Source of the DNA: a virus
Strand: one strand, 5' to 3'
IMG/VR virus record: IMGVR_UViG_3300010938_000075
Span: 235 to 33,494 of that record
DNA length: 33,260 bases
The notes beneath the pieces were generated by a model. That model worked only from the letters and a program-made list of their open reading frames with translations. It had not been told where the DNA came from and made no database searches. The position numbers were made by a program, and so were the translations under genes. Shown here one piece after another: positions 1,863-20,835 of this stretch (positions are counted from its first letter, which is position 1; each line of letters begins with the position of its first letter).

Positions 1863-1890
1863 TTTAAGGCATAACCAAAGGAAGGTTTTT

Positions 1891-2808
1891 ATGTCACAAG
1901 TTAACTACATGATCACAAAGGATGCGTTGAGCGTGAGTTTCGACGGTCAGTATCACACGATCAAGCGAGGCGATAGCCGATACGCACGAGTGGTTGAGGC
2001 AATCAAGCAAGGTAATCTTGCAGACATTCCAACAATCGTAGATCTTAGCAAAGGTCTTGAGATTGGTGGATTGATCTTAAAAGACGGCATCGTGATGACA
2101 AAAGAAGGCGAAGCTTTACCGGCTGCGTTGAACGAGCGCATCATTGAGTTTCGTGATGAAGGCTTGCCCTTTGAACACTTGCTCAAGTTCTGGGAAAACC
2201 TCAAACAAAATCCAAGCTTTCGAGCACGAGAGCAACTGTTCAAGTTCTTGGAGCACAACGGACATCCGTTGACCGAAGATGGTTGTTTCGTAGCTTATCG
2301 CGGAGTAACTGAAGACTTCAAAGACATTCACACAAAGACTTTTAACAATGCCCCAGGTTCTGTCTGCGAGATGCCCCGAGAGCAAGTGGACGACGACCCT
2401 ACCCGAACGTGCAGCGTAGGCCTTCACGTCGCAGCGTGGGAGTATGCGTCTGACTTCGGTCCTCAAAAGATTGAGGTCAAGGTCAATCCCAAAGACGTGG
2501 TTGCCGTACCGATTGACTACAATGGTCAGAAGATGCGAGTCTGTAAGTTTGAAGTCTTGAAGGCATGCGAAAAACCAATCGAGAATCAAGCCTTGTACGG
2601 TCGTGAGAATCAGTCTTCAAAAGATATCTTTGAATTAGATGAAGAAGAGTTAGCTAGTTGTGATCACGACTATGACACTATTGTTCAACTTGCTAGAGAA
2701 TTTTCAGATAGATACGAAGGTCAAGCTTTGATCAATAGAATCTCTGAAGAGACTTACCATGATGAGGACTATAGTGAAGAAGTTCTTACAGAAGAAGGGA
2801 TGTTCTAA
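1891..2808 (+). CDS. rIIB: rIIB-like protein
   Basis: Partner of the upstream rIIA homologue; in T4 both products are needed for rII functions at the host membrane. The 305-aa protein shows the typical rIIB layout. The N-terminal ~70 residues resemble a small domain with 'YHTIKRGDSRYARVVEAIKQG'-type spacing (Tyr/Arg rich). The central block (about residues 85-190) contains FLEHNGHPLTEDGCFVAYR and a CSVGLHVAAWEYASDFG segment, both characteristic of rIIB proteins. The C-terminal ~70 residues are acidic and probably flexible. The start is well set: an AAGGAAGG Shine-Dalgarno lies just upstream (about 1877-1884) with good spacing. The stop overlaps the next gene's start (TAATG), indicating translational coupling into the envelope-protein genes. 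Confidence 0.85.
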   Translation: MSQVNYMITKDALSVSFDGQYHTIKRGDSRYARVVEAIKQGNLADIPTIVDLSKGLEIGGLILKDGIVMTKEGEALPAALNERIIEFRDEGLPFEHLLKFWENLKQNPSFRAREQLFKFLEHNGHPLTEDGCFVAYRGVTEDFKDIHTKTFNNAPGSVCEMPREQVDDDPTRTCSVGLHVAAWEYASDFGPQKIEVKVNPKDVVAVPIDYNGQKMRVCKFEVLKACEKPIENQALYGRENQSSKDIFELDEEELASCDHDYDTIVQLAREFSDRYEGQALINRISEETYHDEDYSEEVLTEEGMF

Positions 2809-3246: not shown

Positions 3247-4104
3247 GTGAAAAAGTATATTATTGTAACTCTTTCGAGTTTGGCCTTGGTCGGTTGTGGG
3301 AAGTACTTTGATACCGAACCACTCCCCGAAAAAGACAGCTATCCAGTACAAGCTCAACCAATCAATATCGAAATCTTTATTGAAGGCGATCAGATTAATA
3401 ATTCTAATAATAATGTAGCCGAAGGTGGAAGTGTGATTGATAGCGGTAACAGTTCAAACACTAATACCAACACGAACACTAATCAGTTAAGCGCTGAAGT
3501 TGACTTTGATTTGGATTTTGACTTCAACATTTACCTTGAAGGCGGAGAAGATTACTTCAAGCGTGTAAAGCGTGACCGCACCCGAGCACCTAATCGTTGC
3601 GAAGACCCACAGCCAGGTCGTCACTTGCTCTGCCATGTGTATGACTTCAACGGTCGTACTCAACTGGCTACACAGCTCGACTCAGCACCGCACTTGGGGT
3701 CATTTTACATGGATACTTTTGATGTCACTGCCCGAGACTGGCAACAAGGATTCCCAAAATTTCCAGCAAGTCTGTCTCACTTGCGAGAAAATTATGCGGT
3801 TCGATGCTTCGCAAAGCTCCGAGTTACTCACGCAGGTCAGCACACTTTCTCTATTACATCCGATGATGGTATGAGAGTTTTGTTGAACAACTCGCCAGTG
3901 GTTCAAGATGATGGCCTACATGCACCAAGGACTGCAAGCGCAATGACCAACCTAGTTGCGGGATTGTATAACATGGAAGTTCAGTGGTTCCAAGGACCTC
4001 GTACTCAAATTGCTGCGGAGCTTAAGTGGGCAACACCGAGTAATACAACTCTTCGTTACATTACTCCAAGCGATATGCAAAAAGCTAAGAAACTTTGTAA
4101 GTAA
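3247..4104 (+). CDS. PA14-domain lipoprotein
   Basis: Predicted lipoprotein of 285 aa starting at GTG with an AGGAAAAG ribosome site. The signal peptide carries a clear lipobox (LVGC, Cys17). Residues ~55-85 are a low-complexity linker (SNTNTNTNTN) followed by an acidic DFDLDFDF block. The C-terminal part, roughly 130-275, matches a PA14 domain: a strand ending in TFSITSDDGMRVLLNNSPVV, then LVAGLYNMEVQWFQG and AAELKWATPS, in the standard order (SDDGMRV, later G-Y-x-x-x-V-x-W/Y, later L-x-W). PA14 domains bind carbohydrate in adhesins and glycosidases, often through the DD pair seen here. Known: the fold and lipidation. Inferred: a surface or periplasmic glycan-binding role during infection, perhaps shielding the receptor or binding the host wall. 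It sits between an exported protein and a lipoprotein protease, forming an envelope-directed operon. Confidence 0.8.
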   Translation: MKKYIIVTLSSLALVGCGKYFDTEPLPEKDSYPVQAQPINIEIFIEGDQINNSNNNVAEGGSVIDSGNSSNTNTNTNTNQLSAEVDFDLDFDFNIYLEGGEDYFKRVKRDRTRAPNRCEDPQPGRHLLCHVYDFNGRTQLATQLDSAPHLGSFYMDTFDVTARDWQQGFPKFPASLSHLRENYAVRCFAKLRVTHAGQHTFSITSDDGMRVLLNNSPVVQDDGLHAPRTASAMTNLVAGLYNMEVQWFQGPRTQIAAELKWATPSNTTLRYITPSDMQKAKKLCK

Positions 4105-4118
4105 AAAATAGATATGTG

Positions 4119-4152
4119 GCCCCGAGTATCTTAAAAAACCTCCCATCGGGGC
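4119..4152 (+). other. intergenic hairpin ahead of the subtilase gene
   Basis: GCCCCGA at 4119-4125 pairs with TCGGGGC at 4146-4152 (7 perfect GC-rich pairs, 20-nt loop containing an A6 run). A short CCTTTT follows, then the GGGAG ribosome site of the subtilase gene. The T-run is too short for a confident terminator; it may be a partial terminator or an mRNA-processing/stability element between the two lipoprotein genes. Confidence 0.45.
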
Positions 4153-4169
4153 ACCTTTTGGGAGAATTT

Positions 4170-4874
4170 ATGAAGCTGATTCTGTTCTTAATGATCTTAC
4201 TGATGGGCGGTTGTTTTACCGCTCAAGGCGAAAAAGCAGAGATACTAGTTTTTGTTATCGACACAGGCATATCCCCAAAAGTCCCTCAGTTTAAGGGTTA
4301 TCTTTCTAAAACAAATTCTAAGAATGATCTAATAGATGAACACGGTCACGGCACTCACATCACAGGCTTGATACTTTTCGGTCGTTACTTAAAAGATCCA
4401 GTATGTAAAGAGGTAAAGATAGTGTCTTGCCGTTTCTTTTGTAAAAATTCACGAGTAACCACAGCCGATTGTTTTCGCAAGGCTCGCCTAGCAAAGGCTA
4501 ATTTTGTTAATTTTTCAGGTGGTGGAATAGAATATATGGCGGAAGAACATGCCGAACTCAAGCTCTTAGTTAAAGTGTCAAAGGTTGTTGTGGCGGCAGG
4601 GAATGAAAAGTTTAATCTCAAGGAGAAGTCTTATTATCCTGCAAGTTTAAATCTTGAAGGTATGGACATAGTTGCGAATGGTACCTCTGAATCAGATAAG
4701 GCTTCGTCATCTAACTATGGTCTGCCTAACCTGCATTGGGTAGATGGTAGAGGGGTTTTTTCATACACCCCAAGCGGTTCTATTGGAGTGATGGAAGGTA
4801 CTTCTCAAGCTGCTGCGTTAAGAACGCATGAGCTTGTGAAAGAAGCGTGTCAGCGTTTACGATCTTCTAAATGA
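4170..4874 (+). CDS. subtilisin-like serine protease, lipoprotein
   Basis: Small S8-family (subtilase) endopeptidase, 234 aa from the ATG at 4170, chosen because a GGGAG site precedes it and a lipoprotein signal (lipobox LMGGC, Cys15) begins there. A GTG 54 nt upstream is open but would put the hairpin at 4119-4152 inside the gene. The catalytic triad is complete and in S8 order: Asp31 in VIDTGI, His60 in the HGHGTH block, Ser212 in EGTSQAA; Asn145 in VAAGNE supplies the oxyanion hole. There is no propeptide of the usual ~80 residues, and the domain is shorter than bacterial subtilisins (~275 aa), so this is a minimal version. Lipidation places it on the periplasmic side of a membrane or the cell surface. 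Role inferred: degradation of envelope or competing-phage proteins. The last 25 nt overlap the convergent gene at 4850. Confidence 0.85.
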   Translation: MKLILFLMILLMGGCFTAQGEKAEILVFVIDTGISPKVPQFKGYLSKTNSKNDLIDEHGHGTHITGLILFGRYLKDPVCKEVKIVSCRFFCKNSRVTTADCFRKARLAKANFVNFSGGGIEYMAEEHAELKLLVKVSKVVVAAGNEKFNLKEKSYYPASLNLEGMDIVANGTSESDKASSSNYGLPNLHWVDGRGVFSYTPSGSIGVMEGTSQAAALRTHELVKEACQRLRSSK

Positions 4875-5062
4875 TCTTTAATTTCTTGAATTAGTTTAGG
4901 ACTCAAGACTTCAAGGCAGTTACGATTCTTGTACCTAGCAATAGGTTTTTCAAGTAAAGTGTAAACTTCGTCTAGCGTTAAGCCAAACTCTAACTTGTCG
5001 CCGTAAGCTAACAGGTGAACTAATTCAACTAAGAGTTTCTCACGCTCTGTTAGCCTACGCAT
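4850..5062 (-). CDS. small protein of unknown function, 70 aa
   Basis: No family recognised. Predicted mostly helical and highly charged (MRRLTEREKLLVELVHLLAYG at the start, EIKDHLEDRKR at the end). Its start lies inside the 3' end of the Rrf2-type gene (13-nt overlap) and it is the last gene of the leftward operon. It overlaps the subtilase gene by 25 nt tail to tail. The overlapping start suggests translational coupling to the regulator, so it could be an accessory to it; that is only positional inference. Confidence 0.6.
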   Translation of the reverse strand: MRRLTEREKLLVELVHLLAYGDKLEFGLTLDEVYTLLEKPIARYKNRNCLEVLSPKLIQEIKDHLEDRKR

Positions 5063-5418
5063 GAAAGAGCCTTGATCTGCCCAACGGCAGCGATCACTTC
5101 TGCGTGCCTAGCAAGTGGTAGCTGAGCGCCTTCGGGAGATTGAACTGCCACCTTCAAGGTCTTTGCTGCTTCAACTGCATGCATAACATCAAGCAGCGAC
5201 AAGGTAGAAAGATCTTGGCTAGCAACACATCCCCCACCAGGACCACGAACGCTTCGGATCAACCCTTTAATTCTAAGAAGCCGAGCAACTTGTTGCAAGA
5301 ACTTCTCATCCAAGAGGTTTCGATTTGCCACCTCTTTGATCTTTACAGGTCTACCACTCTGATTCTGCGCAATATCTTGCAGTAACACCAAAGCATATTG
5401 TACTTTTGCGGTTAACAT
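5050..5418 (-). CDS. Rrf2/IscR-family transcriptional regulator
   Basis: 122-aa winged-helix DNA-binding protein of the Rrf2 family. Signatures: the N-terminal LTAKVQYALVLLQDIA helix, a helix-turn-helix (VKIKEVANRNLLDEKFLQQVARLLRIKGLI, about residues 25-54), the wing GPGGGCVAS (about 59-67), and a dimerisation helix ending in VMHAVE. Bacterial members (IscR, NsrR, CymR, RirA) regulate iron-sulfur, nitric oxide or cysteine responses. IscR and NsrR bind a cluster with three closely spaced Cys near residues 90-105. Here only two Cys are present (one in the wing, one four residues from the end), so a cluster-binding mode is unlikely; it may act as an apo-type repressor. It is one nt downstream of the trypsin-like protease gene. 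Whether it controls phage or host promoters cannot be told from sequence. Confidence 0.8.
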   Translation of the reverse strand: MLTAKVQYALVLLQDIAQNQSGRPVKIKEVANRNLLDEKFLQQVARLLRIKGLIRSVRGPGGGCVASQDLSTLSLLDVMHAVEAAKTLKVAVQSPEGAQLPLARHAEVIAAVGQIKALSCVG

Positions 5419-5419
5419 C

Positions 5420-6163
5420 TTAGTTACCTCCTAAGAACTCTCGAAGGATTTCGAGAGGAATAAATAAACTTCCGTACACTTTACTTCTATCTTTGAACTC
5501 TTCTCTTGTTTTAGCCGATGAAAGAAGGTTAGACATAACACCAACAACCTCCCCGTCTTGATTAACCACAGCGGCACCACTGATACCGTACCATGCGAGC
5601 ATGTTTGACTCGTTGTATACCCCTAGTAAGAAGACCTCATGCTTCTTGATCACGCCTCTTAAATTTACAGGCCCACCTTGAGGAAAGCCATAAGAGGATA
5701 CGACTTGCTGCATCTTATAATCTTTCGCAATCTTTAGCGCTTTCTTTACTTTAATCTTCGCGTAGATAAGGCATAGGTCAGAGTTTTGAGATACTCTTAA
5801 AATTTGTCCAGGACCAACCCCGCCGCCACGCTTTTCTACCTCTACATAAGAAAAGTTGTACATGTTCTGTCCGTAGGTCTTTCGATCTTCAGGCTTTAGA
5901 ATTGCGCCAGCACAGACGTGTTTATTAGTTACTATGTATGCACCGCGCTCTGTCAGACCGACAACGAAGCCAGTACCCGAACCGCACTGATTATTATAAG
6001 GGCAAGCTATAATCTTTACTGTTGCGTCTTTCACCATCTCTTCTATATTAGTAGCTCTGTAGACTTTGTATCTTTTGTACAGATCACGAAGCCCCCCAAG
6101 AACACCAACTGTAAGTAAAACAACTAGGCTTATTTTTATCGTTTTGTAGGCTAATCTTTTCAT
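5420..6163 (-). CDS. membrane-anchored trypsin-like serine protease
   Basis: 247-aa chymotrypsin/HtrA-fold (trypsin-like) protease. One N-terminal transmembrane helix (about residues 9-27, preceded by MKRLAYKTIK) anchors it with the protease domain outside the cytoplasm. The catalytic triad reads His82 (VTNKHVC), Asp129 (NSDLCLI) and Ser195 (YGISGAAVV); GSGTGFVV before the His and VVGVMS after the Ser are typical. No PDZ domain follows, so it is a stripped-down DegP/DegS-like enzyme of about the minimum length for the fold. Four Cys (54, 60, 84, 131) could form periplasmic disulfides. It lies 1 nt from the upstream gene and 1 nt from the Rrf2 gene, so it is cotranscribed. Substrate unknown. 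Together with the subtilase, the phage carries two extracytoplasmic serine proteases of different folds. Confidence 0.85.
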   Translation of the reverse strand: MKRLAYKTIKISLVVLLTVGVLGGLRDLYKRYKVYRATNIEEMVKDATVKIIACPYNNQCGSGTGFVVGLTERGAYIVTNKHVCAGAILKPEDRKTYGQNMYNFSYVEVEKRGGGVGPGQILRVSQNSDLCLIYAKIKVKKALKIAKDYKMQQVVSSYGFPQGGPVNLRGVIKKHEVFLLGVYNESNMLAWYGISGAAVVNQDGEVVGVMSNLLSSAKTREEFKDRSKVYGSLFIPLEILREFLGGN

Positions 6164-6164
6164 G

Positions 6165-6416
6165 CTAATTATAGTGGTTACTATCTCCTGTATTCTGGTC
6201 TCTGACCAACTCTGAAAAGAAATTAACCACGCTTTCGAGCGTATTTAATTCTTCTTTCATTTGTTGAACAGCAGGGTGCTCGTCTCCAAGGTCTTTTCTA
6301 ACTTGTAGATAGATATTAGTCTTATCTTGAAGGAAGATTGTCAACGCCTGTACCCCAGCCAAAAAGTTTTTTCGGTTTACTAAAAAGTTCTTCTTCTCTT
6401 TTTTATTCGATGACAT
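6165..6416 (-). CDS. small protein of unknown function, 83 aa
   Basis: No family recognised. A basic N-terminus (NKKEKKNFLVNRKNF) is followed by two predicted amphipathic helices (about 18-72) with heptad-like spacing of Leu/Val. No Cys, signal peptide or membrane segment is visible. Its start overlaps the clpP stop by 14 nt and its stop is 1 nt from the protease gene, so it is translated in a tight clpP-83aa-protease series and may be an adaptor or cofactor for one of them; that is positional inference. Confidence 0.6.
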   Translation of the reverse strand: MSSNKKEKKNFLVNRKNFLAGVQALTIFLQDKTNIYLQVRKDLGDEHPAVQQMKEELNTLESVVNFFSELVRDQNTGDSNHYN

Positions 6417-7002
6417 GGTCCACCAAGCCTAGTTCTAAAACTTCTTCTGCTGAAAGGTAGTAGTCCTTCTCGCAAATCTTAGCCCATCGCTTAGCGGAGG
6501 TTTTTCCGTTACTTAATGTTTCATACATCTTATACATTTGACGCTGCAACTGGATATTATGCTTGAAGTCGTTCTCGATCTCAGTCATAGTACCTTTAAC
6601 AACATCGCTCATCTGATGAACCATTACCCATGAATGAGCACCGACATAACGCTCATCACCGGCTGCAAGAATAAAAGTGGCCGCAGACATAATTTTGCCG
6701 AAGCCTCTAGTAATTACATGACAGGGTGAAGCTTTGATACGGTCAATGATACCCAACATGTCGTATACGGAACCGCCAAAAGAAGAGATTTCAATCTTCA
6801 CAGGCCTATCTTTTTCCTTATCAAACTCATCAAAAGCTTTCTGAATTAATTCAAGAGAGCCTTCATTGATCTCGTCAGTCAGATAAACCACTCGCTCTTT
6901 GAAATTAACGCCGTACTCGAAAATGTTTTCGTAGTGCGACGAATCTCTAGAGCGAGTATTTAGAGGTCTCTTCTTAGCCACGCTAAGCTTCCTGTTGCGC
7001 AA
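6403..7002 (-). CDS. ClpP-family serine peptidase
   Basis: 199-aa S14 peptidase. ClpP assembles as stacked rings and degrades unfolded proteins delivered by ClpX/ClpA; phage relatives also process proheads. All ClpP landmarks are present: EISSFGGSVYDMLGIID (substrate-groove strand/turn, about residues 71-87), catalytic Ser106 in GKIMSAATF, His129 in SWVMVHQM, and Asp180 in EKDYYLSAEEV with GLVDHV after it. The N-terminal ~30 residues are basic and disordered, unlike the short processed propeptide of bacterial ClpP. No ClpX-type ATPase is in the window. The gene overlaps the trigger-factor-like PPIase gene by 20 nt, reproducing the bacterial tig-clpP order. A prohead protease is possible, but the gene is 6 kb away from portal and on a different transcription unit, which argues for a host-directed or regulatory proteolysis role. 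Confidence 0.85.
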   Translation of the reverse strand: MRNRKLSVAKKRPLNTRSRDSSHYENIFEYGVNFKERVVYLTDEINEGSLELIQKAFDEFDKEKDRPVKIEISSFGGSVYDMLGIIDRIKASPCHVITRGFGKIMSAATFILAAGDERYVGAHSWVMVHQMSDVVKGTMTEIENDFKHNIQLQRQMYKMYETLSNGKTSAKRWAKICEKDYYLSAEEVLELGLVDHVIE

Positions 7003-7528
7003 CCGCCTGTTGTGTTTTTACTTTTTCCAGTTCGAACTGCTTTTGAAGCTCAAGAGCTTTCTCAGCTACGCGAGAAGGTACTTCGTTCAATACCTTGCGA
7101 ACGCATACTTCGAACTGAGCAGTCTTACCTGCAAGCTCTTTGCTCTGATAGTTCTCAGGAAACTTCACATCAAAAGTCTTTTCTTCACCGGCTTTCATAC
7201 CAAGAAGATTATTTTGGAAGTCTCCAAGGAACTGATGAACCTCCATGTCAACAAAAACGCCAACGCCAAGCCCGCCTTCAAAAGGTTTACCTTCTAGTGT
7301 TCCAACAAAATCAATGTATAAAATCGACTTTGATCCTACGGCACCGCCATCTTCACGCATGATAGACATAGAAGCCAGGTTTGAGGTCTCAAGCTTTAAG
7401 TTACGAATCTGCTGATTCACAACCATAGCCAAGCCTTGAACCATCTTCACCGCGTTTTCTGCTTGATCGACGATTTGATCTTGCATCTGACGCTTTGTCA
7501 TCTGTTTGCGAGCTTTGAATCCGCCCAT
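6983..7528 (-). CDS. trigger-factor-like FKBP-type peptidyl-prolyl isomerase
   Basis: 181-aa protein with an FKBP-type PPIase domain of the trigger-factor kind at about residues 75-160. It shows YIDFVGTLEGKPFEGG, then LLGMKAGEEKTFDVKFPENY, then KTAQFEVCVRKV; these are the conserved strands and the GxxxGExxxxxxxFPExY block of trigger factor. The ribosome-binding N-domain and the long C-domain of bacterial Tig are missing: instead there is a ~65-residue Gln/Lys-rich helical N-terminus and a ~30-residue Gln/Glu-rich coiled tail. Known: PPIases speed prolyl isomerisation and can act as chaperones. Inferred: a folding helper paired with the overlapping ClpP, or an assembly chaperone. A good AAGGAGAAG site precedes the ATG. 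Confidence 0.8.
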   Translation of the reverse strand: MGGFKARKQMTKRQMQDQIVDQAENAVKMVQGLAMVVNQQIRNLKLETSNLASMSIMREDGGAVGSKSILYIDFVGTLEGKPFEGGLGVGVFVDMEVHQFLGDFQNNLLGMKAGEEKTFDVKFPENYQSKELAGKTAQFEVCVRKVLNEVPSRVAEKALELQKQFELEKVKTQQAVAQQEA

Positions 7529-7544: not shown

Positions 7545-8117
7545 TTAGTTCGACTGAATGTCGAAGTTTAAAAATTGTGGGTCAATATTAAAACGAACAC
7601 CGGACCTAGTCATAACATGAACGAGACCATCATCTCGCTCATCCATAACCATGCATTTATCCATACTTGCTACTTTTCCGCGTTGAGAAACTGGAACACC
7701 GCCAAGGTCTATAATCTCTGCTTCTTGTCCTTTGTAGCTACCAGCGGTAGGTACTGGGTTTTTTTCGATCTTTCCAAGTACTTTCTCTTCCTTCGCAGGT
7801 GCATCGGCCTTTACCACATTTGTGATAGCGGCTGTCGTTGTCTTTACCACATTTGTGGTAGAAGCTTTCGTTGCTGACTTATCTTGCGCTCTATTTGCTA
7901 GTAATTTCAATACTTTAACTTCTTCGTCTGTAAACGCTGATTGATTCTCGACTTGCTCGTTAGCGGCGAGCTTCAACAAAGCCTCAGTTATCGCGGCCAT
8001 GACCTCAGTCTTTATAGCTTCCGGTGTATCTTTTGGCAGAGTGATCTTGGCGTTGACAAGCGCCTTCTTTCGGGCTACCTCACGCTCAAGCTCCGCAATC
8101 CTATCTTGCACGCTCAC
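7545..8117 (-). CDS. 190-aa protein of unknown function with coiled-coil N-terminus
   Basis: First gene of the leftward operon; GTG start with a perfect AGGAGG site five nt upstream (8123-8128). The N-terminal ~75 residues are helical and charged (IAELEREVARKKALV at the start), residues ~82-115 are a Thr/Val/Lys-rich linker with an internal repeat (TNVVK twice, 11 residues apart), and the C-terminal ~60 residues form a compact predicted beta domain (GSYKGQEAEIIDLGGVPVSQRG... ending in FNFDI-type strands). No catalytic motif seen. Function unknown; position suggests it belongs with the PPIase and ClpP genes. Confidence 0.65.
   Translation of the reverse strand: MSVQDRIAELEREVARKKALVNAKITLPKDTPEAIKTEVMAAITEALLKLAANEQVENQSAFTDEEVKVLKLLANRAQDKSATKASTTNVVKTTTAAITNVVKADAPAKEEKVLGKIEKNPVPTAGSYKGQEAEIIDLGGVPVSQRGKVASMDKCMVMDERDDGLVHVMTRSGVRFNIDPQFLNFDIQSN
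7809..7857 (-). repeat. 33-nt-spaced direct repeat with inner palindrome
   Basis: CTTTACCACATTTGTG occurs at 7809-7824 and exactly again at 7842-7857. The second copy is followed by G, making a perfect 12-nt palindrome CCACATTTGTGG. It encodes the duplicated TNVVK of the 190-aa protein, so a simple linker expansion explains it; no regulatory role is shown. Confidence 0.7.
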
Positions 8118-8227: not shown

Positions 8228-8244
8228 GTATGAAAGAGGGATTT

Positions 8245-8514
8245 ATGAAAGGTATCTTGGAGTTTAACCTGCCGGAAGAACAAGAGGAATTTGATTTGGC
8301 TAATAAAGCCAGCGCTCTTCGCAATACCCTGACCGATGCTGAAAACTTTGTGTTTAGGCCTGCCAGAAAGCATGGCTACTCAGATCAAGAGATTCAAAAG
8401 CTGGTAGAAGAGTTGGACAATCTGTCCGACGGTAAGGCTACCGAGCTTATCAGCCTGCTTGAAGCTAAGTTTTATGAGTGCGCAGAGGCAAACGATGTGT
8501 TAGGGTTACTCTAA
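8245..8514 (+). CDS. small conserved-type phage protein, 89 aa
   Basis: Start set at ATG 8245 because AAAGAGGG lies four nt before it; an ATG at 8230 overlaps that site. The beginning (KGILEFNLPEEQEEFDLANKASAL) resembles a short acidic protein family common in phage genomes near nucleotide or replication genes, but I know no established function. Helical, acidic, no Cys cluster or membrane segment. First gene of the rightward 8.2-10.7 kb unit. Confidence 0.7.
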   Translation: MKGILEFNLPEEQEEFDLANKASALRNTLTDAENFVFRPARKHGYSDQEIQKLVEELDNLSDGKATELISLLEAKFYECAEANDVLGLL

Positions 8515-8573
8515 TGTTGCATGTAAAGATCGACCTAGTTCCTTTTGGTAAAACAAATGCCCGTCAAGACTGA
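8514..8573 (+). CDS. 19-codon ORF, possible gene remnant
   Basis: ATG overlaps the stop of the 89-aa gene (TAATG), encoding MLHVKIDLVPFGKTNARQD and stop. The VKIxLVPFG beginning is like the first strand of a small phage protein usually much longer, so this may be the surviving 5' end of a deleted gene. The rest of the gap to 8604 holds only the ribosome site (AAGAAGG) of the next gene. Confidence 0.3.
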   Translation: MLHVKIDLVPFGKTNARQD

Positions 8574-8603
8574 GGCCTTGACCACACTAAAGAAGGTAAT
8601 AAA

Positions 8604-9224
8604 ATGAAACGCTTCACGATCAACGACATCAGAAAGTGGAAGCCGTGCTACGACCCAAGTGAGCATCTGCCAGAAAGTTGGCAGGGTACTGCCCTAGACA
8701 TACTCAACGACAACCGCATTCTCTTTAGAGATCGACTTTGGGTTATCATGCGTACAGACTTAGTTTCTGAAAGGCTAATGAGACGATTCGCCGTATGGTG
8801 TGCAAGACAAGTTCAGCACCTAATGGACGATGAGAGAAGTATTCACGCGCTGGACGTAGCAGAAGCATATGCAGAAAATCGCTGGCTAATTGACGACGCG
8901 GCCTACGCTGCGGCTTGGGAAAATAAGTTGGCTGCGGCAGAGGCCGCCGCAAAGGACGCAATAGAGGGCGCAGCAGCGGCGTGGACTGTAGCGCAAGCGA
9001 CAGCATGGTACGCAGCACGAGCCGCAGCACGGAACGCAGCGTGGGATGCAGCAAAAGACGCAGCACGGAACGCAGCAGAGGCGACAGGATGGTCCGTAGC
9101 ATGGAGCGCAGCGTGGGATGCCGCCGCAGCACGGGCCGCAGCACGGGCCACAGCAGTGGCCGCTCAAGAACAAAAGCTACGGGAGATGTTAATTGCAGGT
9201 ATTGAAACTGGAGATACAAAATGA
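8604..9224 (+). CDS. Ala-rich protein of the 'putative immunity protein' (Imm5-like) type
   Basis: 206 aa in two parts. Residues 1-90 are a compact N-domain (IRKWKPCYDPSEHLPESW, then DRLWVIMRTDLVSERLMRRFAVWCARQV) of the kind found in bacterial and phage proteins annotated as putative immunity proteins. Residues ~95-190 are an Ala/Trp/Arg helical repeat with a short period (AARNAAWDAAKDAARNAA and relatives), followed by a charged helix. The name comes from association with polymorphic-toxin loci in bacteria; no biochemical function in phages is established to my knowledge. AAGAAGG lies at suitable distance before the ATG. Long open frames antisense to the repeat are an effect of the GCN/NGC-rich repeat. 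Confidence 0.65.
   Translation: MKRFTINDIRKWKPCYDPSEHLPESWQGTALDILNDNRILFRDRLWVIMRTDLVSERLMRRFAVWCARQVQHLMDDERSIHALDVAEAYAENRWLIDDAAYAAAWENKLAAAEAAAKDAIEGAAAAWTVAQATAWYAARAAARNAAWDAAKDAARNAAEATGWSVAWSAAWDAAAARAAARATAVAAQEQKLREMLIAGIETGDTK
8966..9160 (+). repeat. degenerate Ala-codon repeat tract
   Basis: GC-rich tract built of GCAGCACGG-, GACGCAGCA- and GCGTGGGATGC-like units encoding the Ala-rich helix of the preceding protein. Its composition is clearly more GC-rich than the flanks. Such units recombine easily, so repeat number may vary between related phages. Confidence 0.75.
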
Positions 9225-9336
9225 ACAAGCTGTGAACTCGATCGGCTGGAGGGCAAGCGCTGGTTGCGCCACCATCATCTACACAGGCGCAGACCAAGAA
9301 GACTCTAGAAGAGTTTACAGAAAGGAAGTTTGTAGT

Positions 9337-10482
9337 ATGGGTGCCGTGAGCTTACCTAGGTTATACAAGAAAACTTCTACAGGAAAGATCGAGCAGTGGG
9401 AAGTTTATGCTGCTCAGAAGCCTGATGGTCGATGTCATGTCAATGTCACATTCGGCGAGGTTGGTGGCAAGATGCAAACAACCTTTGATACCATCACACA
9501 GGGTAAGAACCTTGGCAAGAGTAACGAGACTACCCCTTATCAGCAAGCGTGTAAGGAAGCGAAGTCCAAGTGGGATAAGATGAAGAAGAAGGGCTATGTT
9601 GAGTCGATTGAAGCTGCAAAGGCTGGAGAAGTTGATGCCTTGATCGAGGGTGGAATCGAACCGATGCTGGCTCATGTTTATGAGAAGCATGGGAATAAGA
9701 TCAAGTTTCCCTGCCTTGCTCAGCCTAAGCTAGATGGGATTCGTTGTATAGCAATCAAAGACCGCCAAACTGTCACCCTTTGGTCTCGCACTCGAAAGAG
9801 AATAACCTCCTGCCCACACATTGAAAAGTCTATAGCTTTTCATTTTGCACGCTTTCATAGCTTGATCTTAGACGGCGAGCTTTATAATCATGATCTAAAG
9901 GATGACTTTGAAAAGATCGTATCGGCTGTACGCAAAGAAGATCCAGCTGAAGAATCTGAAAAGGTTCAATATCATATTTATGATGTGGTCATTGATGAGA
10001 CTAACCTTCAAAGAGCACGCTGGCTGACTTTGAATGCTTTGTGGTCTGATCGAGAGCCTTTGCGTTTGGTAAAGACTGAAGGTGTGCGCAGCGAAGCTGA
10101 TGTCGCCATTCTTTTTAAAGAGTACAGAAAAGAAGGCTACGAAGGTTTGATACTTAGAAACAACGATGCCAAATATGAAAATAAGCGTTCGTACAACCTA
10201 CAAAAGATCAAAGAGTTTGATGATGCTGAGTTTCGTATCGTAGGTGTAGTAGAGGGTAAAGGAAAACTTCAGGGTTTGTTAGGCGCTTTCGTGTGCGCAA
10301 CAGAAGATGGTGCCGAGTTTGAAGTCAAGATGACAGGTAATCAAGAGGAAACTAAGAAGTTCCTGCATGATGAAAGCCTTTGGAAAGGTAAGCTTTTGAC
10401 CGTACAATATCAAGGTTTGACAGGCAAAAACAAAGTACCACGATTTCCTGTGGGTCTACGACTTCGTGAGGAGAGTTTATGA
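9337..10482 (+). CDS. ATP-dependent DNA ligase
   Basis: Seals nicks in phage DNA through an enzyme-AMP intermediate. 381 aa from the ATG at 9337, which has an AAAGGAAG site eight nt upstream; an in-frame ATG at 9193 lies inside the previous gene and is rejected. Nucleotidyltransferase motifs in order: I, K131-L-D-G-I-R (adenylated Lys); III, LDGELY with E181; IV, EGLILR (269-274); V, K290-I-K292; then an OB-fold C-terminus (EFRIVGVVEGKGKLQGLLGAF). The first ~90 residues (LYKKTSTGKIEQWEV, VTFGEVGGK, GKNLGKSNETT) look like a WGR-type domain, otherwise known from poly(ADP-ribose) polymerases and bacterial DNA-repair proteins, and may position the enzyme on nicked DNA. Its stop overlaps the next start (ATGA). 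Confidence 0.92.
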   Translation: MGAVSLPRLYKKTSTGKIEQWEVYAAQKPDGRCHVNVTFGEVGGKMQTTFDTITQGKNLGKSNETTPYQQACKEAKSKWDKMKKKGYVESIEAAKAGEVDALIEGGIEPMLAHVYEKHGNKIKFPCLAQPKLDGIRCIAIKDRQTVTLWSRTRKRITSCPHIEKSIAFHFARFHSLILDGELYNHDLKDDFEKIVSAVRKEDPAEESEKVQYHIYDVVIDETNLQRARWLTLNALWSDREPLRLVKTEGVRSEADVAILFKEYRKEGYEGLILRNNDAKYENKRSYNLQKIKEFDDAEFRIVGVVEGKGKLQGLLGAFVCATEDGAEFEVKMTGNQEETKKFLHDESLWKGKLLTVQYQGLTGKNKVPRFPVGLRLREESL

Positions 10483-10739
10483 ATGTTTTAGAAAGTCTAC
10501 AGGATTTACATTGTGCTTTAGAGGTTTGTTACATGCACACTGGTTTAAAAATTCACTTAGAGCCTGACGCTTTTTATAGATTAATGCTTGAAGTTCAAGG
10601 CAAATCTCAAACAGCCCCTATCTCAGAAGGTGAGTACAACACTAACGAACTTAAATTGGCTACGTCAGTCGGTTATTTAGTGGTTGTAAAAGATGAAACT
10701 CTTAGAACTAATGGGCACACTAAAACTTTTAAATTTTAG
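10479..10739 (+). CDS. small protein of unknown function, 86 aa
   Basis: No family recognised. Begins within the ligase stop (ATGA), so translation is coupled. Mixed alpha/beta prediction, with two Cys near the N-terminus (HCALEVC) and a C-terminal strand pair (YLVVVKDETL...TKTFKF). It converges with the minor head gene, overlapping 11 nt; the junction holds a CTAAAA/TTTTAG inverted repeat but no convincing terminator. Confidence 0.6.
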   Translation: MNVLESLQDLHCALEVCYMHTGLKIHLEPDAFYRLMLEVQGKSQTAPISEGEYNTNELKLATSVGYLVVVKDETLRTNGHTKTFKF

Positions 10740-11556
10740 GCGGCTTCTCGCCAGGTAGTAAGAAGTGAAGTTCACATCGACATCTGGGGTGCGTTGAACC
10801 AATAACCGGCTTCCATTCAGATTTCGGTTTGCCATCATTTGTACCGTTTGCAGCAAGTTCGGCCAAAGTGTATATCTTAGGATTACCGTTTTTATCCTGG
10901 TAGAAAGAAAAGCACCAATCGCAAAGCCTACCGTCGTTCTTTACGATCTTATATACTCGTATCTCATCTGCTTTTATGCCCAAAACTGAACCAACGGTTT
11001 GAGCTTGATCCATTACTGCGTTGTTTACTAAGTTTGTAAAGCTCACGGTAGCAGCCCGAACAAAATTTGAGTCTACGGTGCTTAATAATCCTGCAACCAT
11101 CGCAATCAAGCGCCTAGCAGACGCGTCCTTAGAAGGCTTTTTTCCAGCCACTTCCATCTTTTGATGAGTGTCATTTACATGCAAAACTGATTGTCGAATT
11201 CGTTTTTTTAGATCTTCCTTAGCGTTCAAAAGAGCTTCATACATTTCACGCTTTGCGTGCTCTAAGCTGTAGGCTTGGGTATCGGAGGTGATGGGCATTA
11301 CGTTAGATAGATTGGCAGCAGCTATCAAATCTCTCAGCTTGATTGGACGCTTATCAGTTTGACCGGCTCTAGCTCTTGCGATTAGATATAAGGATTCGAT
11401 TAGAGGTCTGTTGATTTGAACTAAGCCTAGTACACTTGCTCGCTGCTTATCTTCGTCAGATAATATGTCATATCCCACTATTGAGATCATAAAGTCCAAG
11501 AAGTTTTTCTCTACTATTTGGTCAATGTTATTTAAAGTTCGTTGTTCTAGCAGCAT
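10729..11556 (-). CDS. minor head / head morphogenesis protein (SPP1 gp7 / Mu gpF type)
   Basis: 275 aa. The C-terminal ~75 residues carry the Cys/His signature of the phage Mu F-like head protein domain: DGRLCDWC, later W-K-P-V-I-G-S-THPRCRCELHF. This domain occurs in minor capsid proteins that sit near the portal and help head assembly or DNA ejection. The N-terminal two thirds are helical, as in gp7 proteins. Its place downstream of TerS, TerL and portal on the same strand supports the assignment; the intervening homing endonuclease and two small ORFs are insertions into an otherwise standard order. GAGGAAG precedes the ATG at good distance. It lacks the extra toxin domain sometimes fused to MuF proteins. 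Confidence 0.75.
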   Translation of the reverse strand: MLLEQRTLNNIDQIVEKNFLDFMISIVGYDILSDEDKQRASVLGLVQINRPLIESLYLIARARAGQTDKRPIKLRDLIAAANLSNVMPITSDTQAYSLEHAKREMYEALLNAKEDLKKRIRQSVLHVNDTHQKMEVAGKKPSKDASARRLIAMVAGLLSTVDSNFVRAATVSFTNLVNNAVMDQAQTVGSVLGIKADEIRVYKIVKNDGRLCDWCFSFYQDKNGNPKIYTLAELAANGTNDGKPKSEWKPVIGSTHPRCRCELHFLLPGEKPPKI

Positions 11557-11764: not shown

Positions 11765-11874
11765 CGGGCACCACCTGACGATTCTAGCTTGACTTCCTTA
11801 TAAGCCATCTGGTTTAGGAGATTACCAATAGGCCCCGACGAGTTCTTTTTTGTTACCAAATTTAGAAAGCACAT
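11761..11874 (-). CDS. 37-aa ORF between homing endonuclease and head genes
   Basis: Too short for usual gene calling but coupled at both ends: its ATG overlaps the stop of the endonuclease gene (TAATG), preceded by GGAG, and its stop overlaps the next start (ATGA). Encodes a basic peptide starting MCFLNLVTKKNSSG and ending LESSGGAR, with MAYKEVKL in the middle. Such coupling on both sides is hard to get by chance; function unknown. Confidence 0.5.
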   Translation of the reverse strand: MCFLNLVTKKNSSGPIGNLLNQMAYKEVKLESSGGAR

Positions 11875-13076
11875 TATTGCTCCAGGATAAATTTTAAGTT
11901 ACCAGTGCCGTATACTTTGAGCGCATTTTTAAACTTACCACTATTCCAAGAGGCGCGCCTATTGTATAGCTTTCCGTTTAAAAGCCAATTAAAATCTACG
12001 CTCGTCATTCCAATATACTTAAATCCAGCTTTAGAATAAACATTGCCATTTGAGTAGCGAGCGTTAGCATAAGTAATTATAGTATCTTTTGAGAGCTTTA
12101 GTCTAGCCTTTAGCAACTTACTAAACCCACCAACCACTTGATATCCAAGCTTGGTACAAAATCTAGCGATCTCTAAGCCCTCTTTGTGATTCCTAAAAGT
12201 GATTAAAGCGATTAACTCAGTGTCATCAAATAAACCCAAAGCTATAACCGAGGGGGTAAAGCCTTGAAGGTGGTTAGCGTTGAGAAAAGCTCTTTCACTG
12301 GCTTTGTCTACTGACTTCACGTTAAGTTTTCTAGCAAACAGTTTTTTATCAAACAGTCCCAGCTTAGATCGGATCATGCTTAAAACTATAGGGCGTTTTG
12401 ATTCGTACTCACTAGCCCAGAACTGAAGTAATGTATAGCCTTGATCTTTAGCTAATTGATACTTTTTGCGGTGGTAGTACTTGTCTCTAAACTTTGAAGA
12501 ATGCCAGTACTCACCGTTAAGCTCTACAGCAATATTGTCAATTACGAAATCCAATTGTAGGTTTGAACCTTGCAGCTTTACGTTACGTTTGACTTGTGCG
12601 GCTATTTCTAAAAGGTCTTTGTAAAAAACATCTTCCAAGTTAGATCTTGGAGCGCAGGTGGGGCAGGTAGGGGTCTGAAGAAAGTTGTTCGTGCTCCTTT
12701 CAAATTCGTGACCTTTGCTGCATCTGTAAACTCTAGAACGACTATTAACTTTTGAAACTACTTCAATATCTAAGCCTAGATTCTTTACAGTTAAAGCGTG
12801 TCTGTCTATGATATTAGACTTTATGATCTTACCTACGGTGTTCTCGTTTACGCCTGTAATCTTAGAGATTTGTCGATTAGTTAGGCCTCTAGCATTAAGT
12901 TCTAGAATCTCGTTAGGATTTACGACAGAGTGCCTTGCTTTAGTCTTAAGATTGTTTTTATTAAGAAAGTTTCGTACAGCAGTAAAACTTACACCTAAGA
13001 CCTTGGACATCTTCTCCATAGATAAGCCATCGTTAAGTAGCTTTATTACTTCTTCTTTACGATGGTCCAATAGCAT
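11874..13076 (-). CDS. free-standing homing endonuclease, Vsr/EDxHD-like
   Basis: 400-aa mobile endonuclease. Domains in order: two helix-turn-helix segments (about residues 5-45 and 50-90; MEKMSKVLGVSFTAVRNFL, NRQISKITGVNENTVGKI) for site binding; a zinc-finger-like knuckle (CSKGHEF...CPTC); a Vsr-like nuclease core with LDFVIDN, VELNGEYWH and LLQFWASEYE (about 175-235); and a C-terminal domain (HLQGF...IALGLFDD...ITFRNH...YANARYSNG...GFKYIG) that recurs in such phage endonucleases. Known: these enzymes cut alleles lacking the element and spread by repair. The gene fits exactly between portal and the 37-aa ORF, not in an intron. The stretch seems more AT-rich than its neighbours, consistent with transfer. 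Confidence 0.8.
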   Translation of the reverse strand: MLLDHRKEEVIKLLNDGLSMEKMSKVLGVSFTAVRNFLNKNNLKTKARHSVVNPNEILELNARGLTNRQISKITGVNENTVGKIIKSNIIDRHALTVKNLGLDIEVVSKVNSRSRVYRCSKGHEFERSTNNFLQTPTCPTCAPRSNLEDVFYKDLLEIAAQVKRNVKLQGSNLQLDFVIDNIAVELNGEYWHSSKFRDKYYHRKKYQLAKDQGYTLLQFWASEYESKRPIVLSMIRSKLGLFDKKLFARKLNVKSVDKASERAFLNANHLQGFTPSVIALGLFDDTELIALITFRNHKEGLEIARFCTKLGYQVVGGFSKLLKARLKLSKDTIITYANARYSNGNVYSKAGFKYIGMTSVDFNWLLNGKLYNRRASWNSGKFKNALKVYGTGNLKFILEQ

Positions 13077-13078
13077 TA

Positions 13079-14911
13079 TTATTCCTGATCTTGGATATAG
13101 TATTCAATGATTGACTTTTTGGTATCTTCTTTTTCCTTTTCAGGAGAAGTATCAATCTTGCTAACTTCGTCTACTAAAGACTCTAGGTCCCTATCAAACT
13201 GAGAGGCAAGCTCTTTGGCCTCTTCTGACTGCGCGCCATTCTGCTCTGGATCTCCGCCCTCTTCACCATCAACTGCACCATCATCAACTTGATTAGCAGG
13301 ATCATTCGCTGCCATCTTCTGAGCCAAGTACTGAGAGTAAATAGCATTAAGAATTATGTCACCACTCTCAATCGGTTCTCTGCCCATCTCGATTCGAGCT
13401 TCATTAACGGTTTTCCAAACAGCAGTTTCTTTTTGCAATCTATCGATTTCTTGTTGACGCGTTTCAGCATCAAGACCAACAAACTCAAAACGATATTTTT
13501 TCGCATACTCTTTATTCCATCGCGGCAACACATGGTTGTTGATCAACCCTTGTACATAATCAAGCAGGGGTTTTAAACCTTTGTCACGGCTAGCTTTAAT
13601 TCTAGTTTCGTTAGACGATTCATTCAAAGTTGAGGTGTTAACCTTACTGATGTCGAAGTTGATCTCAGCGGGGTCAATCTGATAAACAGCACAGCAGATA
13701 CGAATTAAGTAATTCATCCACTGTTCAAACTCCATTTCGCGATTTGACTGAGCAAGTGGAACCCACCTAACTTCGTCAGCCATACCAATGATAGGAGGTC
13801 TGAAAGCGTTTCTAGTATTGCTGATCTGATTGAACCATTGACGCTTAAAGGCTTCAAGCTGAGCACGAGATATGTTTTCGCCCTTAATATGCAACAAACC
13901 TTTAGTACCGATACCTTGAACAAAGAAGTTTCTGTTATGAGCTTCTGCATACAAGTGCGCAGTAACGATCTGCATTAGCAGCTCCAACTCACCAACTGCG
14001 TACCCGTTATCTTCTGGATCTACAGTAGGGTTGGCTGGTTCAAACACGAACCAGTCTTCTGACCAAGCGGCAACGATTTGTCCCCGAACAACTTGAACAT
14101 ATCTATAAGGCTTGTTGGTCTTTCTTTTAATCTCTTCTTCAGTCAGACCACGAGCCATCATCTGCTCAATTAAAAGCTTCTGCAATCTCTCAGCAGAAGT
14201 TTTAGTAACATAACGAATTGTACCGGCAGATACAGGGTAAAAGTGATGACACTTCTCTCCGTTTTTCTGAGGTACCAGCTCAATAGCTGCGTAGTTATAA
14301 GTGAGACGATCTTTGATAACAAGTTTCATGAACTTATCAAAATCTACTCGCTTGTTTGTAGTATCACTCTCACCTACATCCATCCCACAATGCTTGATAA
14401 ATTCTTCGATCTCTTTGATTTCTTTAAGCTGTTTCTTTTTAACTTCGATGCGACGCTTTTCAAACTCAAACTTCTTTTCAGCATACTGCTCAGGAGTAAG
14501 AGTGGGATCTGCCAAGTCCAATTTTTCATCTTCAGTTAGATCTGCTTGATTTTCTGGAACAATTAACCAACCTGGAGAGTATCGATTCTTTTGTTTCTTG
14601 GTGAACATCGAGCCTTGAGAAACTCGTGTTTGATGAATAGCCATGACGATTGAATCTCGGCGTGCCATGGTCTTAAGAATAGGCATGCCGATGGCACCGG
14701 ACTTCTCTTTATACCCATATTGTTCTTGACCTTGGTAATCTAACTCCGTAATCGCCAGCTTTCCGCCGTGATCTTCTGGTCTAGGAGCTTGGCTAGCGCT
14801 ACTTGATTTCTCAATGCTTTCGATGTTGGTGCGAGATTTTGTGATGTAAGAGTCTAAAGTCACATTGATAGCTTCGCCAACTTTAGAGATAAAACTTTTA
14901 TTTTCTGCCAT
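13079..14911 (-). CDS. portal protein
   Basis: 610-aa portal: the dodecameric ring at one head vertex through which TerL pumps DNA. Evidence: position immediately after TerL (14-nt gap); the core with YVQVVRGQIVAAWSEDWFVF, the long helical stem region (LLMQIVTAHLYAEAHNRNFF), and the QIDPAEINFD / TLNESSNETRIKASRD block followed by a helix where portals carry the tunnel loop (IGM..VRWVPL..SNREMEFEQWMNYLIRICCAVYQ). The region around residues 110-170 is a highly charged insertion (Glu/Lys coiled), and the last ~60 residues are acidic and disordered, a common portal tail. Length is slightly above HK97/SPP1-type portals because of these. A potential ribosome site is weak (GGAGAAATTAA). Confidence 0.88.
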   Translation of the reverse strand: MAENKSFISKVGEAINVTLDSYITKSRTNIESIEKSSSASQAPRPEDHGGKLAITELDYQGQEQYGYKEKSGAIGMPILKTMARRDSIVMAIHQTRVSQGSMFTKKQKNRYSPGWLIVPENQADLTEDEKLDLADPTLTPEQYAEKKFEFEKRRIEVKKKQLKEIKEIEEFIKHCGMDVGESDTTNKRVDFDKFMKLVIKDRLTYNYAAIELVPQKNGEKCHHFYPVSAGTIRYVTKTSAERLQKLLIEQMMARGLTEEEIKRKTNKPYRYVQVVRGQIVAAWSEDWFVFEPANPTVDPEDNGYAVGELELLMQIVTAHLYAEAHNRNFFVQGIGTKGLLHIKGENISRAQLEAFKRQWFNQISNTRNAFRPPIIGMADEVRWVPLAQSNREMEFEQWMNYLIRICCAVYQIDPAEINFDISKVNTSTLNESSNETRIKASRDKGLKPLLDYVQGLINNHVLPRWNKEYAKKYRFEFVGLDAETRQQEIDRLQKETAVWKTVNEARIEMGREPIESGDIILNAIYSQYLAQKMAANDPANQVDDGAVDGEEGGDPEQNGAQSEEAKELASQFDRDLESLVDEVSKIDTSPEKEKEDTKKSIIEYYIQDQE

Positions 14912-14925
14912 TTAATTTCTCCATA

Positions 14926-16719
14926 TCAGAACACGAACCAAAATCCATCACCACCGTCTACTCCACCGTCTTCGTCGGACTTCTTTTTACCGTCAGGTCC
15001 GTATTCTTGCCTGTTATCATTGAAGTTTGAAACTCCAGCTTTTTCGGCCATCTCTTCTGCGGTAGGGTAGGCAATATGACGCCCTGCGGCATCTTTGGTG
15101 GACTTCGCTTCTTCAACTTCTTCCTCATTATAGCCTATATAGAGCGGACTTGTCTTGTCAAACTGATAACAGATCAAGGCCACAACCATCGCCATATCGT
15201 CTTTACAACCAGGGGCATGCTGAATCTGGACCTTTCCAGAGTCCGTTTTCTTTTCCCTCAAGTCTTTAAGATGCCTGAAAATTAAAGGATAGTCAATGAT
15301 CTTCAATAGCTTAGAGTTAATGTTAATCTGAAGGCTGTACATGGCCTTATTTTTTGACTGACCTGACATCCTAAACTCTTTGGCAAGGCACCCTTCTTCC
15401 ATCAGAAGCGTTTTAATGGTGGCAAAGGCGTACTGATCGGCGACCACGAAAGGGACCTGATACTGCTTCAGCTTTGAAGCTATCTGTGGAATAATGTTCT
15501 TTGGGTCTAACTCTTGCCCTGGTAGCCCACGCCAAGCTATAGCGTAATCCACGACTATCTTGGACTCTCTTTGTTTTGCTTCTTTATCCCAGTAATGTTC
15601 TTTATGACCTATACCAAAGCCCCAATAGTCCTCTTTGGTAGCATAGTCCATGGCAGCAACATATCTATACTTAGGGTTGTAAGGTAAGTCTTCTATACCG
15701 GCAAGCCTAGTCATATCGATAAGGTTAGGGTCTAGGTATGAAACCTCTGACGCCGTATACTGAGCGCCGTACTCACGAAGAAAGTAGGCCGAACCTTTCT
15801 TCTTTTGTTTTTCAAGATACTTGACTGAAATACTAGGATTTGCATACCAAGATGGAATCTGGAGATGCAGGATGTCCGGGTCTTTTGAGTTCTCGTAGTC
15901 GCCATACATAAGACCAGACTGACCGTTAGGAGAAGAGATCTTAAGGATAAGGGCCATACCTTCGACTTGTTGGAACTGTGAAAGGGCAGGGGCTAGGGCT
16001 TGATAGATAGCTGTATCGGTGTTTTTTGCGTCGGTACCGTCCATGACGCCCATGAAAGCATTCTCGTCCATGATTGCAAACGGAACAGCCATGCCTCGAA
16101 GTTTTGAGATATCTGCAGCAATAACTTTAATTATCACTCTATTATTGAGTTTAATCTGACCGCCAATAAGGGCGTCTTGTTTTCCAATTTTATCTTCAGG
16201 ATACTCATCCTGGAAGTTTTCGATCTTACCGTCGAGAAAGGTGTCGAACAGATAAGTCGATCTAAGAAACATATTCTTAATCGTTGCGTAGATCTCCCCT
16301 GCTTGCTCTTTGGTTGGAGAAACTATGGGGATAGTTGCGTGAGGTGATGTGCCCAAGTAAGGAGTGTAATCAAACTGAGTAGCATAATAAATGGCAATAC
16401 CAGCACCAATGGTTGTAGACTTACCAGACCGCCGCCCCCAACACAAAGAAACATCTGAGTATAGCGTAGGAACGTACCTATCTTTGCCTGAAAAGTGTTT
16501 AAACATTTCCAGTTCGCTTGGAAACTCTACTTCTTGATAATCATGCGATCTAGGAATAGGAGTTGTTTCGTCTAGAGACTCAGCTTGGATAACTTTTAAA
16601 GTCATTTTTTGCGCAGGTGATAGATTCTTAATTCCTAAAGTAGCTTCCCACTCAAAGAACTCAAGCAACGATAAACCTAATAGAGTTTTTGGCCTTTGGA
16701 CCTTTACGATTTCACTCAT
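14926..16719 (-). CDS. terL: terminase large subunit
   Basis: 597-aa packaging motor. The N-terminal ATPase has Walker A GRRSGKST (95-102) and Walker B ending FAIMDEN (Asp218, Glu219), with a coupling-type motif in ISSPNGQSG (261-269). The C-terminal RNase H-like nuclease shows the acidic triad: Asp358 in VAAMDYA, Asp428 in VVADQYA, and Asp507/508 in GCKDDMAM. Both domains are complete and of normal length. The start overlaps the TerS stop by four nt (ATGA), and portal follows. The last ~50 residues are Asp/Gly-rich and end in FWFVF, possibly a portal or TerS contact. Confidence 0.95.
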   Translation of the reverse strand: MSEIVKVQRPKTLLGLSLLEFFEWEATLGIKNLSPAQKMTLKVIQAESLDETTPIPRSHDYQEVEFPSELEMFKHFSGKDRYVPTLYSDVSLCWGRRSGKSTTIGAGIAIYYATQFDYTPYLGTSPHATIPIVSPTKEQAGEIYATIKNMFLRSTYLFDTFLDGKIENFQDEYPEDKIGKQDALIGGQIKLNNRVIIKVIAADISKLRGMAVPFAIMDENAFMGVMDGTDAKNTDTAIYQALAPALSQFQQVEGMALILKISSPNGQSGLMYGDYENSKDPDILHLQIPSWYANPSISVKYLEKQKKKGSAYFLREYGAQYTASEVSYLDPNLIDMTRLAGIEDLPYNPKYRYVAAMDYATKEDYWGFGIGHKEHYWDKEAKQRESKIVVDYAIAWRGLPGQELDPKNIIPQIASKLKQYQVPFVVADQYAFATIKTLLMEEGCLAKEFRMSGQSKNKAMYSLQININSKLLKIIDYPLIFRHLKDLREKKTDSGKVQIQHAPGCKDDMAMVVALICYQFDKTSPLYIGYNEEEVEEAKSTKDAAGRHIAYPTAEEMAEKAGVSNFNDNRQEYGPDGKKKSDEDGGVDGGDGFWFVF

Positions 16720-20750: not shown

Positions 20751-20835
20751 TGGTGCCTCGTGCCGGACTTGAACCGGCATGCTGTTAAGCGAGGAGTTTT
20801 AAGGCCCTTGTGTCTACCAGTTTCACCAACGAGGC
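20751..20835 (-). tRNA. tRNA-Leu (anticodon UAA)
   Basis: 85 nt including an encoded CCA end. Acceptor GCCTCGT / ACGAGGC pairs perfectly, then A-CCA. D-arm with TGGTGAAACTGGTAGACA, T-arm GCCGG-TTCAAGT-CCGGC, and a class II long variable arm (GCT-TAAC-AGC), as expected for Leu. The anticodon TAA is at 20801-20799, preceded by T33 and followed by AA. The anticodon stem has a C-C mismatch next to the loop and a G-U pair, so it is weaker than usual. It follows the reductase gene by 35 nt and precedes a terminator, so it is probably processed from that message. It reads UUA/UUG, codons used often in these AT-leaning genes. Confidence 0.9.

Follow-up and report, generated by a model that had tools for sequence, protein, structure and literature searches.

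A trigger factor-derived PPIase domain encoded beside a ClpP-type peptidase in the terminase-portal block of an uncultured phage lineage

Introduction

Why would a phage keep the gene for a trigger factor (Tig)-type PPIase directly upstream of one for a ClpP-type peptidase, and is the pair a borrowed piece of a host operon or an arrangement of the phage's own? The question is raised by a 33,260-nucleotide stretch of DNA (the window), a fragment that spans positions 235–33494 of a 41.7-kb IMG/VR virus record (IMGVR_UViG_3300010938_000075). Phage ClpPs are common and already known (PMC7824862), and their partners are mostly unknown. A sequence-only reading of the window had remarked that the pair is not a standard phage module, and a search of the open-access literature agrees with this, as it yielded no described equivalent and no paper that reports a Tig-type PPIase and a ClpP as a pair in a phage.

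Results

Organization of the locus

The minus-strand genes between 8117 and 5050 are, in order of transcription, those for a 190-aa protein, the PPIase, ClpP, an 83-aa protein, a trypsin-like protease and an Rrf2-type regulator (Table 1). The program-made ClpP open reading frame runs to a TTG at 7002 (199 aa), and its 20-nt overlap with the PPIase gene depends on that TTG. However, the close relative L004 has an ATG at the position of the window's GTG 6981, with AGGAAG preceding both, and clpP starts 3–14 nt past the PPIase stop in five further relatives (L005, L006, L009, L010 and L097); clpP thus most likely abuts the PPIase gene and does not overlap it. The most likely gene is 6403–6981, encoding 192 aa with the triad at S99/H122/D173 and starting 1 nt after the PPIase stop. 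Both genes proposed in the sequence-only reading are present, but the overlap described between them is a start-codon artefact of TTG 7002. The 83-aa gene behind clpP does overlap the clpP end, by 14 nt.

Table 1. Features of the PPIase-ClpP locus and the adjoining portal block (window coordinates)
Feature	Coordinates	Strand	Basis
Rrf2-type winged-helix regulator	5050..5418	-	Pfam PF02082 3.2e-20
Trypsin-like (Trypsin_2) protease, N-terminal hydrophobic anchor	5420..6163	-	Pfam PF13365 8.2e-13
83-aa predicted helical hairpin protein	6165..6416	-	Alignment, AlphaFold2 prediction
ClpP-type (S14) peptidase	6403..6981	-	192 aa from GTG 6981 (most likely start); PF00574, triad alignment
Tig-type PPIase, 181 aa	6983..7528	-	Pfam FKBP_C, TIGR00115, PDB matches, AlphaFold2, Foldseek
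190-aa protein directly upstream of PPIase	7545..8117	-	Synteny; conserved along with the pair
Opposite-strand cassette with ATP-dependent DNA ligase	8230..10739	+	Ligase PHROG_114 6.3e-89
275-aa portal-block protein	10729..11556	-	Synteny; conserved
Portal protein	13079..14911	-	PHROG_12 7.7e-51
Terminase large subunit	14926..16719	-	PHROG_2 2.4e-25

The 190-aa protein has no significant family match in Pfam or PHROG searches. The trypsin-like protease, in which His, Asp and Ser are conserved in an alignment of relatives, is the end of the conserved gene run, and by synteny the Rrf2-type regulator comes after the module in some relatives only. The ligase cassette separates the PPIase-ClpP pair from the portal block, a position in which L006 and L010 have no such cassette. 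Within the portal block, the 275-aa protein has a Cys/His-rich C-terminal end that, by eye, resembles Mu gpF-type minor head proteins.

Several other features of the window and its relatives are worth recording. Genes for a PA14-domain protein and a subtilase (Peptidase_S8) at 3247–4874 (+) adjoin rIIA/rIIB, and there are therefore three protease types within about 3 kb. A 400-aa gene following the portal gene (11874–13076, minus strand) has HNH/homing endonuclease-family PHROG matches and is also found in L006, not in L005, L009 or L010. There is a tRNA-Leu (taa) at 20751–20835 (-), beside a ribonucleotide reductase gene. A DnaB-like helicase is present as two ORFs (368 and 391 aa) in 32173–33260 and the start of L003, and is single in the related genomes G001 (740 aa) and G002 (707 aa); the gene is split, or the window contains a frameshift or a sequencing error. 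G002 (G002:C1:94874-95764, plus strand) and G001 also carry a gene that by eye is branched-chain aminotransferase-like.

The PPIase is a cut-down trigger factor

The PPIase matches Pfam FKBP_C (5e-10) and the NCBIfam trigger factor model TIGR00115 (1.7e-24), the latter with 86.4 bits against a curated cut-off of 180.2 for full-length proteins. Trigger factors are the only matches in a sequence search of the PDB, and the top matches when an AlphaFold2 model (mean pLDDT 70) is searched with Foldseek. The model has a long N-terminal helix of low confidence (residues 12–56), an FKBP domain (57–149, pLDDT about 75–93) and a C-terminal helix (153–180). In alignments to Tig, F104 and F139 correspond to F198 and F233 and the Y221 and F177 positions are kept; equivalents of F198 and F233 are retained in eight of eight phage PPIases. 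None of these eight has the ribosome-binding GFRxGxxP motif that is present in all seven bacterial Tigs compared, and the C-terminal arms of Tig are absent, as only a helix follows the PPIase domain in the 181-aa protein. The view that Tig has been stripped to its PPIase domain is thus borne out, with TIGR00115 covering only profile positions 145–241 of 410 and the rest of Tig missing.

The phage ClpP has a complete triad and an altered docking surface

The ClpP ORF matches PF00574 (1.5e-29), and Ser106, His129 and Asp180 (199-aa numbering) align with E. coli S97, H122 and D171, confirming that the triad is complete; in the corresponding ClpP of L033 (7983–8570) the triad Asp is replaced by Asn. 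The pocket by which E. coli ClpP docks ClpX and ClpA is one that we take to consist of Y60, Y62, F82, I90 and L114 (mature numbering). At the aligned positions the window ClpP has the changes Y60K, Y62E, F82A, I90R and L114G, and K/R60, E62, R90 and G114 are found in all seven slot-A ClpPs, with position 82 mostly Ala; in the seven bacterial ClpPs compared, Y62 and L114 are retained and residue 82 is F or Y. The phage ClpP thus appears to be without the pocket that in bacteria receives the ATPase partner, and because these hydrophobic residues are replaced, canonical ClpX docking is unlikely. This weakens the earlier proposal of a ClpP working with host ClpX; the phage protein could still engage a host ATPase through a variant mode of docking. 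The aligned oligomerisation-sensor pair is E-K in the phage ClpP versus E/D-R in bacterial ClpPs.

The same reading had ClpX dropped from the phage unit, and this agrees with the larger relatives. A search of G000, G001 and G002 for AAA_2 (ClpX/ClpA-type) proteins gave none, with a control matching in 14 of 14 genomes; two large relatives, including G001, which carries terminal repeats, thus yielded no ClpX-like gene. A 304-aa AAA protein is present in G001 and G018 and was not found in G002 or G021.

The pairing is conserved and has outlasted replacement of ClpP

The PPIase gene is directly upstream of clpP in eight IMG/VR contigs, all of them related (the window, L004, L005, L006, L009, L010, L033 and L097), so the adjacency that the sequence-only reading proposed to look for in other phages is not confined to this contig. 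The gene order from the 190-aa protein to the trypsin-like protease is common to all eight, with the downstream genes of the module divergent in L010 and L033; two other contigs, L007 and L032, each contain one side of the module. Among the pair-bearing contigs L005 is 118 kb with 122-base terminal repeats, L010 is 113 kb and L097 is 110 kb. The module runs on directly from the portal block in L006 and L010, and in the others it is parted from the block by opposite-strand genes, usually including the DNA ligase gene. The PPIase has a dN/dS of 0.066, and ClpP one of 0.007, between the window and L004, and both genes are under strong purifying selection. This, together with the recurrence in eight contigs, argues that the pair is not a chance find. 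Searches for further PPIase relatives of L033 and L097 gave none beyond the known contigs, no related ClpP or terminase was found in GTDB genomes, and no close cultured phage of the lineage was found.

An informative departure is seen in L006 and L097, where the position next to the PPIase holds a ClpP of a different lineage (type B). L006 groups with L009 by both portal (support 98/96) and PPIase (85/94), and yet its ClpP is type B and only 30% identical to that of the window; a clade uniting slot A with slot B is rejected by the AU test (p 0.002). In L006, ClpP has clearly been replaced in place, with the PPIase and 83-aa genes retained. That the pairing was kept through this replacement is the strongest evidence that having ClpP beside the PPIase is selected, although recombination between the flanking homologous genes could have produced the replacement without any coupling. 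In the distant phage L051, ClpP is within the portal block, beside the portal gene and that of the 275-aa protein and with no adjoining PPIase, so ClpP can occupy this block without a PPIase partner. A 172-aa gene in L051 was considered as a homologue of the 190-aa gene, and the similarity is not significant.

The 83-aa family is conserved behind ClpP in nine of nine loci examined, including those with a type-B ClpP. It had been put forward as a candidate adaptor, a role we find unsupported since the AlphaFold2 model (pLDDT 81) is a plain hairpin of two helices with no PDB fold match at E≤0.001.

ClpP-fold genes also occur in multiple copies in other viral genomes. The large uncultured phages L077–L083 have two or three each, and some of these (in L077 and L079) start with a stretch resembling a signal or anchor sequence, which suggests exported ClpP-like proteases. 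The 167-kb viral record L058 has a ClpP at 1489–2076 (-) that scores 252.8 bits to PF00574 and is near bacterial ClpP in the tree, as well as two other ClpP-fold genes.

The pair is not a copied host operon

The slot-A ClpPs form their own clade (support 100/99). A tree that unites them with bacterial ClpP is rejected (p-AU 0.0006); trees that place them with the S14 prohead proteases (p-AU 0.21) or with the whole of type B (p 0.23) are not rejected. The proposal that a host tig-clpP operon was recently captured and trimmed draws on the order of Tig part followed by ClpP, which is that of bacteria such as E. coli. It is scarcely credible given that ClpP lies outside the bacterial clade, that two unrelated ClpP lineages are found beside the same PPIase family, with that of L006 exchanged without its PPIase, and that the PPIase is at most about 45% identical to its bacterial Tig matches. 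Because the slot-A ClpPs are outside the bacterial clade, the bacterial order appears to be echoed, not inherited as one operon.

Twenty-six INPHARED records match the Tig-type PPIase. The 12 of these that we inspected all have long Tig ORFs; seven have an adjoining bacterial ClpP, and clpX is annotated in L114. These characters make the inspected records look like bacterial DNA, and there are no phage parallels of the pair among them. L114 (CAKLQH020000005.1), L039, L110–L113 and L117 are filed as phages and carry bacterial tig-clpP, which is probably host DNA.

Relation to head maturation proteases

The best PHROG matches of the window ClpP are head maturation proteases (phrog_94, 3.7e-33), and the score to the NCBIfam head-maturation model NF045542 is 81.4 bits, with a cut-off of 120. 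In the relatives G001, G002 and G018, genes for a phrog_1028 head maturation protease, a scaffold-like protein and a phrog_752 capsid protein form one cassette, which in G001 is about 31 kb from ClpP; G021 also has phrog_1028. The window's record excludes the capsid-cassette region, and its separate capsid protease is presumed from these relatives. Since the place beside the capsid gene is taken in relatives by a separate SPO1-type protease, the standard prohead protease is not ClpP, and a canonical role of this kind is ruled out by synteny. Grouping with prohead proteases next to capsid genes had been named as an observation that would count against a tig-clpP-like unit; ClpP does not lie next to capsid genes in the relatives, although the sequences are compatible with a deep kinship to S14 prohead proteases (p-AU 0.21).

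Discussion

In their terminase-portal block, these phages keep the gene for a phage-lineage S14 peptidase next to that for a Tig-derived PPIase domain. As the best of several readings, we tentatively suggest that the two may form a proteostasis unit of the phage's own, in an uncultured lineage of ~110–118 kb phages with an SPO1-type capsid cassette. The synteny suggests expression together with the late head genes. ClpP would assemble into a ring chamber, would not dock host ClpX or ClpA in the usual way, and may degrade or trim unfolded or misassembled phage proteins, the most likely substrates being head proteins of the portal block that are synthesized concurrently. The PPIase could bind these chains through its FKBP domain and flanking helices, and either aid their folding or leave them to the protease. 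A stronger version, in which the Tig-derived PPIase replaces an ATP-driven unfoldase and feeds virion proteins, nascent or misfolded, to a ClpX-blind ClpP ring, making an AAA+-free chaperone-protease, is speculative and rather unlikely to be correct.

Other explanations draw on parts of the same evidence. ClpP could be an accessory morphogenetic protease that trims particular virion proteins (the portal, the 275-aa protein, internal proteins) alongside the SPO1-type capsid protease and is assisted by the PPIase as assembly chaperone. The portal-block position in relatives, the L051 ClpP beside the portal and 275-aa genes, the PHROG matches and the possible sister relationship to S14 prohead proteases all point this way, but G001 has a dedicated protease-scaffold-capsid cassette about 31 kb away and ClpP falls below the head-maturation cut-off, and we consider this role conceivable but unlikely. 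A function directed at the host or at incoming phages, in which ClpP, the membrane-anchored trypsin-like protease and the subtilase attack their proteins, is suggested by the presence of Trypsin_2, Peptidase_S8 and rIIA/rIIB genes within 7 kb, and a survey of jumbo phages interprets ClpPs of patchy occurrence as weapons against the host (PMC7824862). In this lineage, however, the slot is a stable feature linked to the packaging block, not a patchy one, and the subtilase is on the opposite strand, so that we doubt this explanation.

Bacterial trigger factor reportedly binds ClpX, speeds the degradation of some substrates and serves as a ClpXP adaptor, with PPIase-dead F198A trigger factor acting like wild type with ClpXP and the arms being part of the ClpX interface (PMC7804408). 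The phage PPIase could similarly be an adaptor for a ClpP that works with host ClpX or ClpA, and the failure to find a phage ClpX fits this; but with Lys, Glu, Ala, Arg and Gly at the docking-pocket positions and the Tig arms missing, it seems quite improbable. It is very unlikely that the two genes are functionally unconnected and adjacent only because the late operon is compact. Synteny alone can last within one phage lineage, and the eight contigs are all related, but the adjacency has outlasted displacement of ClpP and divergence of the PPIase to 28% identity, and the nearby insertion of the ligase cassette did not split the pair.

The proposed proteostasis unit is of interest because ClpP is here repeatedly tied to one small chaperone, with its docking surface apparently gone and another protease at the capsid gene. 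ClpP-fold proteolysis without an unfoldase can thus be put to the test at this locus, as can a trigger factor-protease partnership put together apart from the bacterial operon.

Comparison with known systems places the pair between several of them. With the bacterial tig-clpP-clpX operon it shares the order of a Tig-type and then a ClpP gene, but it has another ClpP lineage, a truncated Tig, no clpX and a setting in the packaging block. The PPIase has the Tig-type FKBP fold of bacterial trigger factor (TIGR00115), with the F198, F233, Y221 and F177 equivalents in the window protein, but it is without GFRxGxxP and arms, and a long helix at the N terminus and a short one at the C terminus take their place. 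The phage ClpP has the fold and full catalytic triad of the bacterial ClpXP/ClpAP peptidase (PF00574), but represents a separate clade with the pocket replaced, and no ClpX-type gene was found in its large relatives. The type-B ClpPs of large phages (relatives of the L006 ClpP, L041–L057) occupy the same slot in L006 and L097 with the triad intact; they are a distinct lineage and elsewhere are at other sites, some near polymerase or ligase genes. The S14 head maturation proteases (PHROG_94 and NF045542, e.g. Giles gp7 and TuertoX gp4) provide the best PHROG match and have a place in the portal block in common with the slot ClpP, but the latter is not beside the capsid gene, where there is another protease, and the window ClpP is without the long C-terminal extension of Giles gp7 and TuertoX gp4.
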